A DNA stretch of 64,000 bases from NCBI RefSeq assembly GCF_006715865.1, contig NZ_VFOA01000001.1:1488001-1552000 (forward strand), written 5' to 3'. A model generated the notes under the pieces. That model had not been told where the DNA came from. It saw only the letters and a list, made by a program, of their open reading frames with translations, and made no database searches. Positions within the stretch are counted from its first letter, which is position 1, and each line of letters opens with the position of its first letter. The DNA is from Cellulomonas sp. SLBN-39 (GTDB lineage Bacteria; Actinomycetota; Actinomycetes; Actinomycetales; Cellulomonadaceae). Made by a program: the position numbers and the translations under genes. Shown in pieces: positions 23,818 through 28,418 of the stretch.

Positions 23818-24240
23818 TCAGCGCACGATGCGCAGCAGCACGCGGTCCTGGGTGCGCCCGCGCAGCCGCCCGACGGCGGAGATCGCCCGGTACCGCCACC
23901 CGTACTTGCGCGCGAGGGCCGCCTCGGCGGACGGTCCCGCCTCCTCGGGCGTCAGCACCTGCGCCCGTGCGCGGACCGCGGGCACCGCGGGGTCGACCCG
24001 GCCGCGCACCGTGCAGGGCCGCAGCTCGACCCGCGGGTCGTGGGCGAGGCGCTTGACCTTGCCGCTCTCGCCGTCGGTCGTCACGACCAGGGCGTCGCCG
24101 TCGCGGGCCACCCACACGGGCGACGGCACGCGCGTGCCGGAGCGGCGGAAGGTCACGAGCTGGACGTACGTCTCGTCGCCGAGCGCCAGGAGCGGGGCAG
24201 GGCTGGGACCGGGCACAGGATCGGGTGCGGGAGGGGGCAC
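23818..24240 (-). CDS. PPOX class F420-dependent oxidoreductase
   Basis: The 140-residue protein has the split-barrel pattern of PPOX/flavin-reductase-like F420 enzymes: LLALGDETYVQLVTFRRSGTRVPSPVWVARDGDALVVTT, then SGKVKRLAHDPRVELRPC and a C-terminal YRAISAVGRLRGRT. These small enzymes usually bind F420 or flavin as dimers and reduce quinone-like or other substrates. The GTG at 24240 is supported by a promoter: TTGACT, 17 bp, AAGTAT, then 6 nt to the start, implying a leaderless message. It lies just downstream of the F420-precursor synthase and monooxygenase genes on the same strand. Confidence 0.84.
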   Translation of the reverse strand: MPPPAPDPVPGPSPAPLLALGDETYVQLVTFRRSGTRVPSPVWVARDGDALVVTTDGESGKVKRLAHDPRVELRPCTVRGRVDPAVPAVRARAQVLTPEEAGPSAEAALARKYGWRYRAISAVGRLRGRTQDRVLLRIVR

Positions 24241-24246
24241 GGCGGG

Positions 24247-24275
24247 ATACTTGTCTGACGTCTGCGCGGAGTCAA
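24247..24275 (-). promoter_or_regulatory. Promoter of the PPOX gene (leaderless)
   Basis: On the minus strand TTGACT (24270-24275) and AAGTAT (24247-24252) are 17 bp apart, and the GTG start follows 6 nt later. This is the best -35/-10 pair seen in the window. Confidence 0.65.
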
Positions 24276-24363
24276 CCCCCCTGCGACGTGTGTCGACACG
24301 GATGAGCACAGGGCGGGTGCGTGGACGTCGGAGGACCCGCTCCCACGGTCCGCCGCTCCTCGG

Positions 24364-25863
24364 TCACCCGACCAGGTACGGATCCGGCGAGAACGTGCCG
24401 TTGGCCTCACGGAACTCCTGGGTCGTGCCGGGCCACAGCAGCGTCAGCCGCCCGCTGCGCGGGTCCACGTACCAGGAGCGGCACCCCGTCATCCACACGG
24501 TGCCGCGGGCCATGGCGTCGATGCGCTCCGTGTACGCGGCCTCGGCCTGCGCGCTCACCTCGAGCACCGGCGCGCCCGGGGCCGTCAGGTGCCGCACCGC
24601 GCCGAGCACGTAGTCGATCTGCGCCTCGATGAGCGCGACGCCCGACGAGTGGCCCAGCGCCGCGTTCGGCCCGTCGACGAGGAACATGTTGGGGAACCCG
24701 TGCACCGCCGTGGACGCGTGCGCCGTCATGCCGTCCGCCCAGTGCTCGGCCAGGGTCCGCCCGCCGCGGCCGCGGACCCGCGGCGCGTACGGCGGGTCCG
24801 CCGCCGCGAACCCGGTCGCCAGCACCAGCACGTCCAGCGCGTGCGCCGCGCCGTCGGCCGCCACCACGTGCCCCGGCCCGACGCGGGCCAGGGGCGAGGG
24901 GTGCAGCCGCACGTGCGGGCGGCGCAGCGCCGGGTAGTAGTCGTCCGAGAGCAGCACGCGCTTGCAGCCGACCTCGTGGTCCGGGGTCAGCGCGTCCCGC
25001 AGCGGGCCGGGCGGCACCTGGGCGTGCAGGTGGTCCAGGGCGCGCCCGCGCAGCGCCGCGACCGCGTCCGGCTCCCGCCGCCGCGCCGCGTGCCCGGGCT
25101 CGAGCACCGCGGCCTCGCGCTCCCGCAGCGCCGTGATGGCCCCCGGGTCGGCCGCGAACGCCGCCCGCTCCGCCGCGCTGTACGGGCGGTCCTCGCGGGG
25201 CACCACGTACGGCGCGGACCGCTGCAGCACGACGAGCTCGCGGGCCCGGGCGGCCAGCGCCGGCACGAGCTGCACCGCCGAGGCGCCCGTCCCGACGACG
25301 CCGACCCGCGCACCGTCGACGGGCACGTCGTCGTCCCACCGCGCGGAGTGCACCACCGGCCCGCCGAACGTGTCGAGGCCGGCCACCGCCGGCAGCCGCG
25401 GCTCGGTCAGCCGGCCCGTCGCCAGCACCAGCACGCGCGCGTCGACCCGGCCCGTCGGGGTGTCCACGTGCCACCGGCGGGCGTGCGCGTCCCACGTCAT
25501 CCGCTCCGCCGGGCTGCCCAGCCGCACGTGCTCCAGCACGCCCTCCTCGCGCGCGACCGTGCGCAGGTACTCCTGGATCTCCGCGCCCGGCGCGTACGTG
25601 CGCGACCACCCCGCGTGCGGCGCGAACGACAGCGCGTACAGGTGCGACGGGATGTCGCACGCGACCCCCGGGTACCGGTTGTCGCGCCACGTGCCGCCCA
25701 CGTCGTCGGCGCGCTCGAGGACGACGACGTCGGTCAGGCCCGCGCGCCGCAGCCGGGTGACCAGACCGATCCCGGCGATCCCGGCCCCGACGACCACGAC
25801 GTCCGTGGTCGTGGCGCGCGGGGCCGCCGTGACCGCCCGACGCTCGACCGTCGGCGCGCTCAC
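24364..25863 (-). CDS. Flavin-containing / Baeyer-Villiger-type monooxygenase
   Basis: This 499-residue flavoprotein has an N-terminal FAD-binding VVVGAGIAGIGL (Gly26, 28, 31), GGTWRDNRYPGVACDIPSHLY, the Baeyer-Villiger fingerprint FxGxxxHxxxW (FGGPVVHSARW), a second NADPH-binding VGVVGTGASAVQLVP, and LDVLVLATGF near the end. Such enzymes insert oxygen into ketones or oxidise amines and sulfides using NADPH and O2. The GTG overlaps the stop of the FO-synthase gene (GTGA, 25860-25863), so the two are co-translated even though the monooxygenase itself uses FAD and NADPH. The substrate is unknown. Confidence 0.87.
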   Translation of the reverse strand: MSAPTVERRAVTAAPRATTTDVVVVGAGIAGIGLVTRLRRAGLTDVVVLERADDVGGTWRDNRYPGVACDIPSHLYALSFAPHAGWSRTYAPGAEIQEYLRTVAREEGVLEHVRLGSPAERMTWDAHARRWHVDTPTGRVDARVLVLATGRLTEPRLPAVAGLDTFGGPVVHSARWDDDVPVDGARVGVVGTGASAVQLVPALAARARELVVLQRSAPYVVPREDRPYSAAERAAFAADPGAITALREREAAVLEPGHAARRREPDAVAALRGRALDHLHAQVPPGPLRDALTPDHEVGCKRVLLSDDYYPALRRPHVRLHPSPLARVGPGHVVAADGAAHALDVLVLATGFAAADPPYAPRVRGRGGRTLAEHWADGMTAHASTAVHGFPNMFLVDGPNAALGHSSGVALIEAQIDYVLGAVRHLTAPGAPVLEVSAQAEAAYTERIDAMARGTVWMTGCRSWYVDPRSGRLTLLWPGTTQEFREANGTFSPDPYLVG

Positions 25864-28418
25864 CGGGCGGCCCCCGGCGCAGCGACCCGCGCGGCGACCG
25901 GCGCCGTCGTGGTCGTCGGCGTGCCGTACGTCGTCGACCGCCGCCGCACGCGCCGCCCCAGCGTCGCGGCCACCCGGGCCACGTCCGCCTCCGTCAGCTG
26001 CAGGCCCTGCTCCGGCCCGGCGTCCGGGCGCAGCGTCCCGTCGAGCAGCACCCCGCCCAGGTCGTCCGCGCCGCCCGCGAGGACCGCCAGCGCCCCGTCC
26101 ACCCCGAGCTTGGGCCAGGCCGCCTGCACGTGGTCGACCCGCCCGTGCAGCGCGAGGCGTGCCACCGCGTGCACGGCCCGCGTCTCGCGCGGCGTCGGCC
26201 CGCCCCGGGTGAGGCGCGCCACGTGCGGCGGCGCGTCGCCCGGCACGAACGGCATGGGGATCAGCTCGGTGAACCCGCCCGTCTCGTCCTGCAGCGCCGC
26301 GAGCAGCCGCAGGTGCCGCACCACGTGCGCCGGGCCCTCCAGGTGCCCGTAGACCAGCGTCGACGTGGACCGCAGCCCCGCCCGGTGCGCGGTGGCGACC
26401 AGGTCCAGCCAGTCCGCGACCGAGACCTCCTGCCCGTCCGAGAGCACCGCCCGCAGCGCGTCGTCGAGGATCCGCGCGCCGGTGCCGGGCACGGTGTCCA
26501 CCCCCGCGTCCCGCAGCGCTGCCGCGTACGCCGCCCGCGTCATTCCCGTCCGTCGGGCGCCGTCGTCGACCTCCGCCGGGCGGAACGCGTGCAGGTGCAC
26601 CCCGGGCCGGGCGGCCTTCACCGCCCGGGCGAGGTCGAGGTACCCCTCGGGGCCGGCCGACGCGGGCACCGCCCCCTGCGCGCAGATCTCCGTGGCACCG
26701 AGCGACCACGCCTCCTCGACGAGCGCCGCGACCTCGGCCGGGCCCAGCGCGTCGGGCCGCTCGTCGCCGACGCCCCGCCACAGCGTCGCGTCCAGGTTCC
26801 GGTTCACCACGTACGTCAGCTCCGCACCGACGACGTCGGCCCGCACCGCGTCGGCCAGCACCGTCAGCGCGTCGAGGTCGGCGCCGTCCGCGCCCAGCAG
26901 CGTCGCGTACTGCGCGTCGGTCAGCCCCGCGGGGTCGTCCTCCGCGCGGGCGAGCGCCCGGCGCACGTCGTCGACGAGCACCGCCGTCCCGCCCGTCGCC
27001 GTCCCGTCCGGCCCCGTCCCGTCCGGCCCCGTCCCGTCCGGCCCCGTCCCGTCCGGCCCCGTCCCGTCCGGCCCCGTCCCGTCCGGCCCCGTCCCGTCCG
27101 GCCCCGTCCCGTCCGGCCCCGTCCCGTCCGCCGTTGCGGACAGCACGACCGGTCGCCACGGCACGCCCCGCACGGGCGCCTGCTCGTCGGCGAGGCCTGT
27201 CGCGTCGGCGTGCGCGGCGACGTGCGGGTGCAGCGCCGGGTCGAGCCAGCGCTCGCGGTCGCGCACGTACGGCGCGTGCACGGTCAGCCGCTGCCGCAGC
27301 GTGAACCCGCTCGCGGCGGTCAGGCGGGCGAGGTCGTCCAGGTGCGGCCAGGGCCGCTCGGGGTTGACGTGGTCGGGCGTCAGCGGGCTGACCCCGCCCC
27401 AGTCGTCGACGCCGGCGCGCAGCAGCAGCGCGAGCTCGCCGGCGTCGGTGAGGTTGGGCGGCGCCTGGACGACGGCGTCGGGGCCGAGCAGCAGGCGGGT
27501 CACCGCGACGGCGGCGACGTACTCCTGCGTGCCCAGGTCGGGCGCGCCCTGCATCGCCGTGCGGGGCTTGGCGCGGAAGTTCTGCACGATCGTCTCCTGC
27601 ACGTGCCCGAACCGGGCGTGCACGTCGCGGATCGCCAGCACGGTCTGCACGCGGTCGGCGTACGTCTCCCCGATGCCCAGCAGCAGGCCGGTGCTGAACG
27701 GCACGCGCGAGCGGCCCGCGTCCTCGAGCACCCGCAGCCGCACCGCGGGGTCCTTGTCGGGGGAGCCGAAGTGCACGTTGCCGCGCACCGCCCACAGGTC
27801 GCGCGACGTCGTCTCGAGCATCATGCCCATCGACGGCGACACCGGGCGCAGCCGCTGGAGCTCGCCCCACGTCATGACGCCGGGGTTCATGTGCGGCAGC
27901 AGGCCCGTCTCGGCCAGCACCCGCGTGCCCAGGTGGTGCAGGTACTCCACCGTGGAGGCGTACCCGCGCGCGTCGAGCCAGTCCCGGGCGGCGGGCCAGC
28001 GGTCCTCGGGGCGGTCGCCGAGCGTGAACAGCGCCTCCCGGCACCCGAGCTCCGCCCCCTGCGCGGCCAGCGCGACGACCTCGTCGGCCTCCATGTAGGG
28101 CGCGATCCCGCGGCGCGCGAGCCCGCCGGGGGTGTCGACGAAGACGCAGTAGTGGCACCGGTCCCGGCACAGGTGCGTGACCGGCACGAACACCTTGCGC
28201 GAGTACGTGACCACGCCCGCGCGCCCGCGGGCGGCGAGCCCGGCGTCGCGCACGCGCCCGGCGGCGTCGAGCAGCCCGTCGAGGTCGTCGCCGCGGGCGT
28301 GCAGCAGGACCTCGGCGGTCGCGGCGTCCGGCGCGGTGCCGTCCGCGACGGCGGCCAGGGCGTCGGCCAGGGCGGCGGGCGCGGGCGGGGTGACGGGGGA
28401 GGGGAGCGGAGTGCGCAC
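25860..28418 (-). CDS. fbiC: FO synthase, CofG/CofH fusion with degenerate CofH half
   Basis: FbiC-type proteins make 7,8-didemethyl-8-hydroxy-5-deazariboflavin, the F420 chromophore, with two radical-SAM centres. In this 852-residue protein the CofG half is normal: TYSRKVFVPVTHLCRDRCHYC holds the C-x3-C-x2-C cluster (C84, C88, C91). A linker with eight Gly-Pro-Asp-Gly-Thr repeats spans about residues 430-473. The CofH half keeps VVNRN, GATEICAQG, HLHAFRP, PGTGARILDD and STSTLVYGH, but where the second CxxxCxxC cluster belongs (about 540-556) it has NLDATLWRGVGDE with no cysteine. This half may therefore be inactive, or the step may be done elsewhere. The GTG start is at 28418. Confidence 0.88.
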   Translation of the reverse strand: MRTPLPSPVTPPAPAALADALAAVADGTAPDAATAEVLLHARGDDLDGLLDAAGRVRDAGLAARGRAGVVTYSRKVFVPVTHLCRDRCHYCVFVDTPGGLARRGIAPYMEADEVVALAAQGAELGCREALFTLGDRPEDRWPAARDWLDARGYASTVEYLHHLGTRVLAETGLLPHMNPGVMTWGELQRLRPVSPSMGMMLETTSRDLWAVRGNVHFGSPDKDPAVRLRVLEDAGRSRVPFSTGLLLGIGETYADRVQTVLAIRDVHARFGHVQETIVQNFRAKPRTAMQGAPDLGTQEYVAAVAVTRLLLGPDAVVQAPPNLTDAGELALLLRAGVDDWGGVSPLTPDHVNPERPWPHLDDLARLTAASGFTLRQRLTVHAPYVRDRERWLDPALHPHVAAHADATGLADEQAPVRGVPWRPVVLSATADGTGPDGTGPDGTGPDGTGPDGTGPDGTGPDGTGPDGTGPDGTATGGTAVLVDDVRRALARAEDDPAGLTDAQYATLLGADGADLDALTVLADAVRADVVGAELTYVVNRNLDATLWRGVGDERPDALGPAEVAALVEEAWSLGATEICAQGAVPASAGPEGYLDLARAVKAARPGVHLHAFRPAEVDDGARRTGMTRAAYAAALRDAGVDTVPGTGARILDDALRAVLSDGQEVSVADWLDLVATAHRAGLRSTSTLVYGHLEGPAHVVRHLRLLAALQDETGGFTELIPMPFVPGDAPPHVARLTRGGPTPRETRAVHAVARLALHGRVDHVQAAWPKLGVDGALAVLAGGADDLGGVLLDGTLRPDAGPEQGLQLTEADVARVAATLGRRVRRRSTTYGTPTTTTAPVAARVAAPGAAR
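27001..27130 (-). repeat. 15-bp tandem repeat in the CofG/CofH linker
   Basis: The unit GTCCCGTCCGGCCCC is repeated eight times without a mismatch (27001-27120), followed by a 10-bp partial copy. It keeps frame and encodes Gly-Pro-Asp-Gly-Thr on the coding strand. Perfect identity suggests recent expansion, so copy number may vary between strains. Confidence 0.95.

Follow-up and report, generated by a model that had tools for sequence, protein, structure and literature searches.

We describe here an fbiC-like gene whose CofH half has lost its radical S-adenosylmethionine (SAM) cluster, found in a stretch of 64,000 nucleotides (the window) from Cellulomonas sp. SLBN-39 (contig NZ_VFOA01000001.1, positions 1,488,001 to 1,552,000 of the forward strand). 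The gene encodes a CofG half, in which the radical-SAM domain is intact, fused to a clusterless CofH half, for which, as for its clusterless homologues, we use the name CofH*. A gene for a Baeyer-Villiger-type flavin monooxygenase (BVMO) follows directly, its GTG start codon sharing bases with the fbiC stop (GTGA). Judging from comparisons of sequences, we favour the reading, at a probability of about 0.6, that CofH* and the BVMO together carry out, by O2-dependent chemistry, the step that CofH performs as a radical reaction, and that the unit is a rebuilt and complete synthase of FO, the core of cofactor F420. About 50 actinobacterial genomes with a clusterless CofH and a flavin oxygenase appear to use one radical domain and an oxygenase in this way, which suggests a second way to the F420 core; in contrast, a passage of a 2021 review has FO made in all studied F420 producers through a universal mechanism, by enzymes with 2 SAM-radical domains (PMC8498797). 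Our searches of the open-licence PubMed Central literature brought up no report of a clusterless CofH or of a BVMO in FO synthesis, and we rate the unit as a new FO synthase variant, with a fair chance that it represents a new route.

The sequence-only reading of the window had placed the loss of the CofH cysteines just after the VVNRN motif, and our examination bears this out. VVNRN lies at residues 537-541 (26796-26810) and is followed by LDATLWRGVGDERPDAL, where canonical CofH has INFTNVCYxGCRFCAFAQRR, and C579 is the sole cysteine of the protein from residue 471 onward. No CxxxCxxC motif was found in any of the 6 frames over positions 26690-26840, so that the loss is not due to a local frameshift, and a frameshift concealing the cysteines was rejected. 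Cysteines in radical-SAM spacing elsewhere in the CofH half were likewise rejected, as the half has one cysteine in all. The same reading was right that the CofG cluster (C84, C88 and C91) is intact, the CofG half also scoring above the cut-off of its profile, and that the rest of the frame is undisturbed (Table 1).

With the CofH profile TIGR03551 the window protein reached 328 bits, or 302 in the genome search, against a cut-off of 374.1, and with NF006687, 'bifunctional FO biosynthesis protein CofGH', it passed narrowly (1031 against a cut-off of 1018). This narrow acceptance of the whole protein masks the CofH cluster loss in standard annotation, and the public annotation of clusterless fbiC-type genes as bifunctional may mislead; the 2 radical-SAM domains by which FbiC, or CofGH, is recognized are here reduced to one cluster, in the CofG half alone. 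We have not classed CofH* as a CofH, because it lacks the defining cluster and falls below the profile cut-off; it is a CofH homologue, probably working with the BVMO towards the CofH product. A search of the one-contig genome (4.15 Mb) yielded neither a second FbiC nor any further CofH-family match, and the separate CofH or second fbiC that the earlier reading had thought worth seeking was rejected.

CofH* shares 47-53% identity with 13 canonical CofH halves. All 3 cluster cysteines are present in 71/71 canonical rows of our alignment and none of them in any of the 26 clusterless rows, the rows having been classed by the cluster motif itself. The second G of QGG, which we take to be a GGE-type SAM motif of CofH, is kept in 71/71 canonical rows and replaced in 26/26 clusterless rows (by QGA, QGP, QGV, QGM or QGL). 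Counting as invariant any position conserved in at least 97% of canonical halves, we observed that 75 of 162 canonical-invariant positions are kept in CofH*, 65 are lost and 22 are switched (71 canonical and 26 clusterless rows). The losses take in the cluster loop and the second G of QGG, and the switches take in the EE of GGTLMEE and an S to R change in HAFSP. The earlier reading had listed many other CofH motifs as intact (HLHAFRP, ILDD and STLVYGH); the changes in QGG, MEE and HAFSP had escaped it, as had the overlapping oxygenase gene. In CofG, 126 of 148 canonical-invariant positions are kept, 22 are lost and none is switched (25 clusterless-type rows and 61 of the 71 canonical rows, the search pattern having missed the CofG stretch in 10), from which we conclude that CofG probably meets its usual substrate. 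These counts, and the tree described below, leave aside L068-L070, in which the genes of G190 and G186 are split or interrupted by N; L045, a near-copy, was retained in the CofH count and excluded from the CofG count and the tree.

A tree of 66 CofH halves (36 clusterless and 30 canonical, with 41 of the 71 canonical rows excluded and L159 and L175 also absent) parts the 2 types by a single branch, at 100/100. We also computed ratios of nonsynonymous to synonymous substitution (dN/dS) by the Nei-Gojobori method, taking the ratios by hand. In the closest genome pair these were 0.08 for CofG, 0.08 for CofH* and 0.13 for the BVMO, and with a second relative 0.20 for CofG and 0.23 for CofH*. The clusterless unit is preserved by selection, and the clusterless state is old and shared and not a product of decay; a loss peculiar to one strain, as first supposed, was wrong.

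The figure of ~50 genomes is the sum 19 + 25 + 6, and excludes L073, L126 and L084, in which CofH* is identical to that of G188, G173 and G368. Among 60 genomes of the genus, FbiC is present in 4, all clusterless with open frames (the query matched 10, but 6 of these only over short stretches of the linker). The home family (221 genomes) has FbiC in 26, of which 19 are clusterless and 7 canonical, and 195 are without FbiC; the family takes in Promicromonospora, Oerskovia and Myceligenerans, since CofH halves from these genera have identical counterparts among the family genomes. A scan of named genomes yielded, among the matches listed, 80 loci, 71 of them canonical and 9 clusterless, the latter from Promicromonospora soli, Oerskovia flava, Kineococcus rubinsiae, four Actinomycetospora, and 2 metagenome-assembled genomes (MAGs), one of Microbacteriaceae and one of Acidobacteriaceae. 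The Acidobacteriaceae MAG (L071) clusters with Promicromonospora and is probably misbinned. Copies in G190 and G186 are broken or N-interrupted; in G186, the run of N lies inside CofH*, and the BVMO is on the same contig.

The association of CofH* with the BVMO was seen in each of these samples. By tblastn, a BVMO lies directly behind CofH* at 9/9 clusterless loci and at 0/71 canonical loci among the matches listed, 68 of the 71 being listed with at least 1.5 kb of downstream sequence. All-against-all comparison of neighbourhoods recovered the BVMO in 8/8 clusterless groups and in 0/8 canonical control loci. A third conserved partner gene was rejected on a count over these neighbourhoods: of 228 open reading frames with relatives outside cofG, cofH* and BVMO, 224 occur in at most 2 of the 8 neighbourhood groups, and the remaining 4 comprise a paralogue of the BVMO, seen in three Actinomycetospora, and a single weak match of 66-88 bits. 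In the home family, a BVMO of at least 49% identity, a line drawn after viewing the match list, is present in 19/221 genomes, which are exactly the 19 with clusterless FbiC, and in 0/7 genomes with canonical FbiC and 0/195 without FbiC; remoter family matches (37-46%) occur in G154, which has a canonical FbiC, and in G177 and G206. A sample of 396 genomes from the order contained 53 with a BVMO match at E <=1e-100, three of them already known. Among the 28 strongest of the 50 new ones (the 22 weaker ones standing outside this test), 25 have a CofH match adjoining the BVMO on the same strand, none above the cut-off, and 25/25 of these are clusterless.

Gene order around the pair is less constant than the pair. 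A CofG-CofH* fusion followed by the BVMO is the order seen in the home family and in family f19. At 4/4 Actinomycetospora loci, CofH* is a stand-alone gene behind cofG, and in Kineococcus and family f8 the cofG gene stands apart and in the opposite orientation, with CofH* remaining next to the BVMO. We examined 15 longer neighbourhoods of our own choosing (14 of the 25 order genomes and G205), in which cofG was divergent in 7, convergent in 3, co-directional in 3 and not seen in 2, both of which start ~1 kb upstream of CofH*. As the position and strand of cofG vary while CofH* and the BVMO stay together, we regard CofH*-BVMO as the constant pair. In family f19 (L171, L173-L175, L178-L180), CofH* has diverged further, with TGGFTE partly lost and HAYRP or HAFRP present, and is still located between CofG and the BVMO.

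The window BVMO carries the fingerprint of type I Baeyer-Villiger monooxygenases, which we take to be FxGxxxHxxxW[P/D] between 2 GxGxx(G/A) motifs. Its F, G, H and W are invariant in 10/10 BVMO rows, the last position being variable, and a Lys-Arg (KR) pair with the conserved Arg is also invariant in 10/10 rows; this Arg is presumably catalytic and stabilises the peroxyflavin. The fingerprint, the 2 Rossmann motifs and the KR pair are shared with steroid and phenylacetone monooxygenases (4ap3 and 1w4x). Unlike these type I enzymes, the window BVMO is shorter (499 vs 542-549 residues), and a CofH* neighbour was seen at every clusterless locus.

Comparable differences separate the fused protein from its own known relatives. 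FbiC (NF006687, the actinobacterial CofGH fusion) has the same domain order, a clustered CofG half, a CofH-like barrel and co-occurrence with CofD; unlike FbiC, the window protein lacks CxxxCxxC, QGG and MEE in its CofH half and has a BVMO next to it. With CofH itself (TIGR03551, 5-A-RU:tyrosine 4-hydroxyphenyl transferase, where 5-A-RU is 5-amino-6-ribitylaminouracil), CofH* has the NRN, HxHA and GxDxGG motifs in common; unlike CofH, it has no radical-SAM cluster, keeps 75/162 family-invariant positions and scores below the curated cut-off. An AlphaFold2 model of CofH* (pLDDT 86) found its best Protein Data Bank matches in MqnE, the futalosine-pathway radical-SAM enzyme (6xig and 6xi9, TM 0.77-0.79; for 6xi9, TM 0.79 and 24% identity). 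By this model, a CofH/MqnE-type TIM barrel is kept in CofH*; MqnE, unlike CofH*, presumably retains the cluster and the SAM site.

Table 1. Features of the fbiC-BVMO region, in window coordinates
Feature	Position	Strand	Remarks
fbiC-like gene, CofG-CofH* fusion	25860..28418	minus	852 aa, GTG start, uninterrupted frame
CofG half, radical-SAM domain intact	27189..28241	minus	~residues 60-410; TIGR03550 454 bits, cut-off 213
CofG 4Fe-4S motif CRDRCHYC	28146..28169	minus	C84-x3-C88-x2-C91
CofH* half, CofH-like TIM barrel without radical-SAM cluster	25914..26969	minus	~residues 484-835
LDATLWRGVGDERPDAL	26745..26795	minus	occupies site of canonical Cys-cluster loop
QGA	26670..26678	minus	canonical CofH has QGG there
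Baeyer-Villiger-type flavin monooxygenase (BVMO)	24364..25863	minus	499 aa, GTG start
BVMO fingerprint FGGPVVHSARWD	25333..25368	minus	
Lys-Arg pair, KR of GCKRVLLSDDYY	24958..24963	minus	aligned with KR of steroid monooxygenase 4ap3
PPOX-class F420-dependent oxidoreductase	23818..24309	minus	adjoins BVMO; TIGR03666 128 bits, cut-off 85

The genomes concerned appear equipped for F420. We do not favour the earlier suggestion that the strain makes no F420: its genome contains both cofD and cofE, each scoring above cut-off, and F420-dependent genes of the PPOX class (Table 1) and, ~6 kb beyond it, of the LLM class lie nearby. We treat the PPOX-class gene as context only. CofD was found in 19/19 clusterless family genomes and 8/8 named ones (27 genomes, ~25 of them different; L071 and the 25 order genomes stand outside this test). 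A canonical CofH was found in none of the 19 family, 8 named and 25 order clusterless genomes (52 genomes, ~49 different, since L073, L126 and L084 are counted twice). We found cofE in 4/4 clusterless genomes examined and likewise in 3/3 FbiC-less ones, the 3 FbiC-less genomes of the genus having CofD in 2 and CofE in 3; cofC was seen in a relative, G013. The BVMO of L171 is followed by a gene for an F420 glucose-6-phosphate dehydrogenase (463 bits, cut-off 420). Within one genus, Kineococcus xinjiangensis has a canonical CofH (515 bits) and Kineococcus rubinsiae a clusterless one (296 bits) with the BVMO, as is expected if one set replaces the other.

In the radical CofH reaction, cleavage of tyrosine gives a 4-hydroxybenzyl radical, which adds to 5-A-RU. 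The 4-hydroxybenzyl unit of tyrosine is thereby joined to 5-A-RU by radical chemistry, as a passage of the 2021 review describes (PMC8498797). In the scheme that we propose, the BVMO would form a 4-hydroxybenzyl electrophile out of a tyrosine-derived carbonyl compound of the form 4-hydroxyphenyl-CH2-C(=O)R, such as 4-hydroxyphenylpyruvate, 4-hydroxyphenylacetaldehyde or a similar compound. With oxygen inserted next to the benzylic carbon in a Baeyer-Villiger reaction, a 4-hydroxybenzyl ester would result, which would expel its acid to yield p-quinone methide. The CofH* barrel would hold 5-A-RU and steer the attack to C5; the normal CofH product would result, and the unchanged radical-SAM CofG would cyclise it to FO. 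A radical reaction would be swapped in this manner for two-electron oxygen chemistry, with the old enzyme kept as a template. By our hand sum, 5-A-RU (C9H16N4O6) and quinone methide (C7H6O) add up to C16H22N4O7, the formula of the CofH product. A precedent for the BVMO step is the conversion of phenylacetone to benzyl acetate by phenylacetone monooxygenase, as described in a portion of PMC3404926. If the radical step has indeed been replaced, we put quinone-methide chemistry at somewhat over half. The full proposal, a second and half-aerobic FO route in Actinobacteria in which the p-quinone methide made by the BVMO from a tyrosine metabolite is trapped on 5-A-RU by CofH* and CofG then completes the synthesis, is tentative, and we would expect it to fail somewhat sooner than to hold. 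The sequence-only reading had offered, as separate options, that another protein performs the CofH step and that the half itself has taken on a new function, for example as a scaffold. The 2 options fit the evidence jointly, the BVMO likely being the other protein. The pairing is shown by the data; FO synthesis, the binding of 5-A-RU by CofH*, the BVMO substrate and the quinone methide we infer.

Several observations weigh against replacement of the CofH step, or against its proposed chemistry. Against the most distant genus relative, dN/dS was 0.39 for CofG, 0.56 for the BVMO and 0.66 for CofH*, the loosest of the 3, in a comparison that is near-saturated. The final P/D of the strict fingerprint is absent in 7/30 order-sample BVMOs, all of them CofH*-linked; the solved proteins nearest to the BVMO are monooxygenases of steroids, cyclohexanone and phenylacetone, with E values as low as 3e-71; and its structure model was poor (pLDDT 59) and was not used. 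A BVMO of similar kind (46-51%) occurs without CofH in 3/28 order genomes, so that the BVMO family cannot be regarded as exclusive to CofH*, and an alpha/beta hydrolase adjoins it in two of these three. An alpha/beta hydrolase also lies between CofH* and the BVMO in two g22 genomes (L054:560-1480 and L062:668-1480), and a simple quinone-methide route needs none. Alpha-keto acids may decarboxylate with peroxyflavins instead of undergoing oxygen insertion. Also, among the 162 family genomes that carry CofD, 136 gave no match to FbiC at E 1e-30, for example L038 (G007) and L039 (G020), and the canonical Pseudokineococcus marinus has CofH and no CofD match; the presence of CofD is therefore no proof that a genome makes its own FO, and, from the matches obtained, FO salvage or another FO source looks common in the family.

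These last figures lend themselves to an alternative in which the unit makes no FO, CofG, CofH* and the BVMO having been co-recruited for making something else, either a modified deazaflavin or an unrelated compound, and FO being salvaged from neighbours. The 22 switched CofH* positions, including S to R in HAFSP, would suit such a change, as would a BVMO bringing chemistry that FO synthesis does not need. Yet CofG has no switched invariant position, CofD is present in 27/27 and canonical CofH in 0/52 of the genomes tested (few duplicates in each), Kineococcus holds both forms, and the neighbourhoods compared have no recurrent third gene; we consider this alternative unlikely. That CofH* is decaying, or a sequencing artefact, is scarcely credible to us, although its catalytic loop is gone and its dN/dS with the distant relative exceeds that of CofG. 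The state recurs in about 50 genomes, the clusterless halves lie on one side of the 100/100 branch, dN/dS is 0.08 in the closest pair, stand-alone copies are retained in Actinomycetospora, and the disrupted frames in most members that decay would bring were not seen, the opposite being found. Pseudogene decay was rejected on the dN/dS values and the tree.

Possibly, both radical steps fall to the lone CofG cluster, CofH* serving as a scaffold for binding and the BVMO as an accessory. The barrel and the 75/162 invariant positions retained by CofH* are compatible with this, and so is the CofG-CofH* fusion in many lineages. CofG, however, shows no matching change; in Kineococcus and f8 it is cofG that is split off and turned round, CofH* staying beside the BVMO, which was present at every clusterless locus seen; and the 2 FbiC domains act independently according to a passage of the review (PMC8498797). 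We regard this explanation as quite improbable. A further alternative is a variant of the replacement reading, within which its odds lie, and differs from our scheme only in the BVMO chemistry: the flavin-peroxide would attack the tyrosine nitrogen or another aromatic precursor, with no free quinone methide. The genomic evidence is the same for both, and the Pfam family Lys_Orn_oxgnase matches the BVMO weakly; flavin monooxygenases of the BVMO superfamily also N-hydroxylate amino acids. The fingerprint F, G, H and W and the KR pair in 10/10 rows point the other way, as do the nearest solved proteins, which are Baeyer-Villiger enzymes, and we hold this variant to be doubtful.

If CofH* and the BVMO do replace the radical CofH step, a flavin oxygenase would have displaced a radical-SAM reaction in an aerobe, with the old enzyme retained as a non-radical partner. 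FO production in E. coli might then gain a first step that tolerates oxygen better, and genome-based prediction of F420 producers would change.

Two minor observations concern the surroundings of these genes. The linker that joins the 2 FbiC halves in the window is repetitive and is coded by a 15-bp tandem array of 9.8 copies (26984..27130, minus strand), which by alignment is not in a relative with 96% identity. Near cofD, we observed a MocR-type regulator, with GntR and aminotransferase domains, in three genomes (L036:3832-5397, L037:30-1532 and L038:14080-15816).

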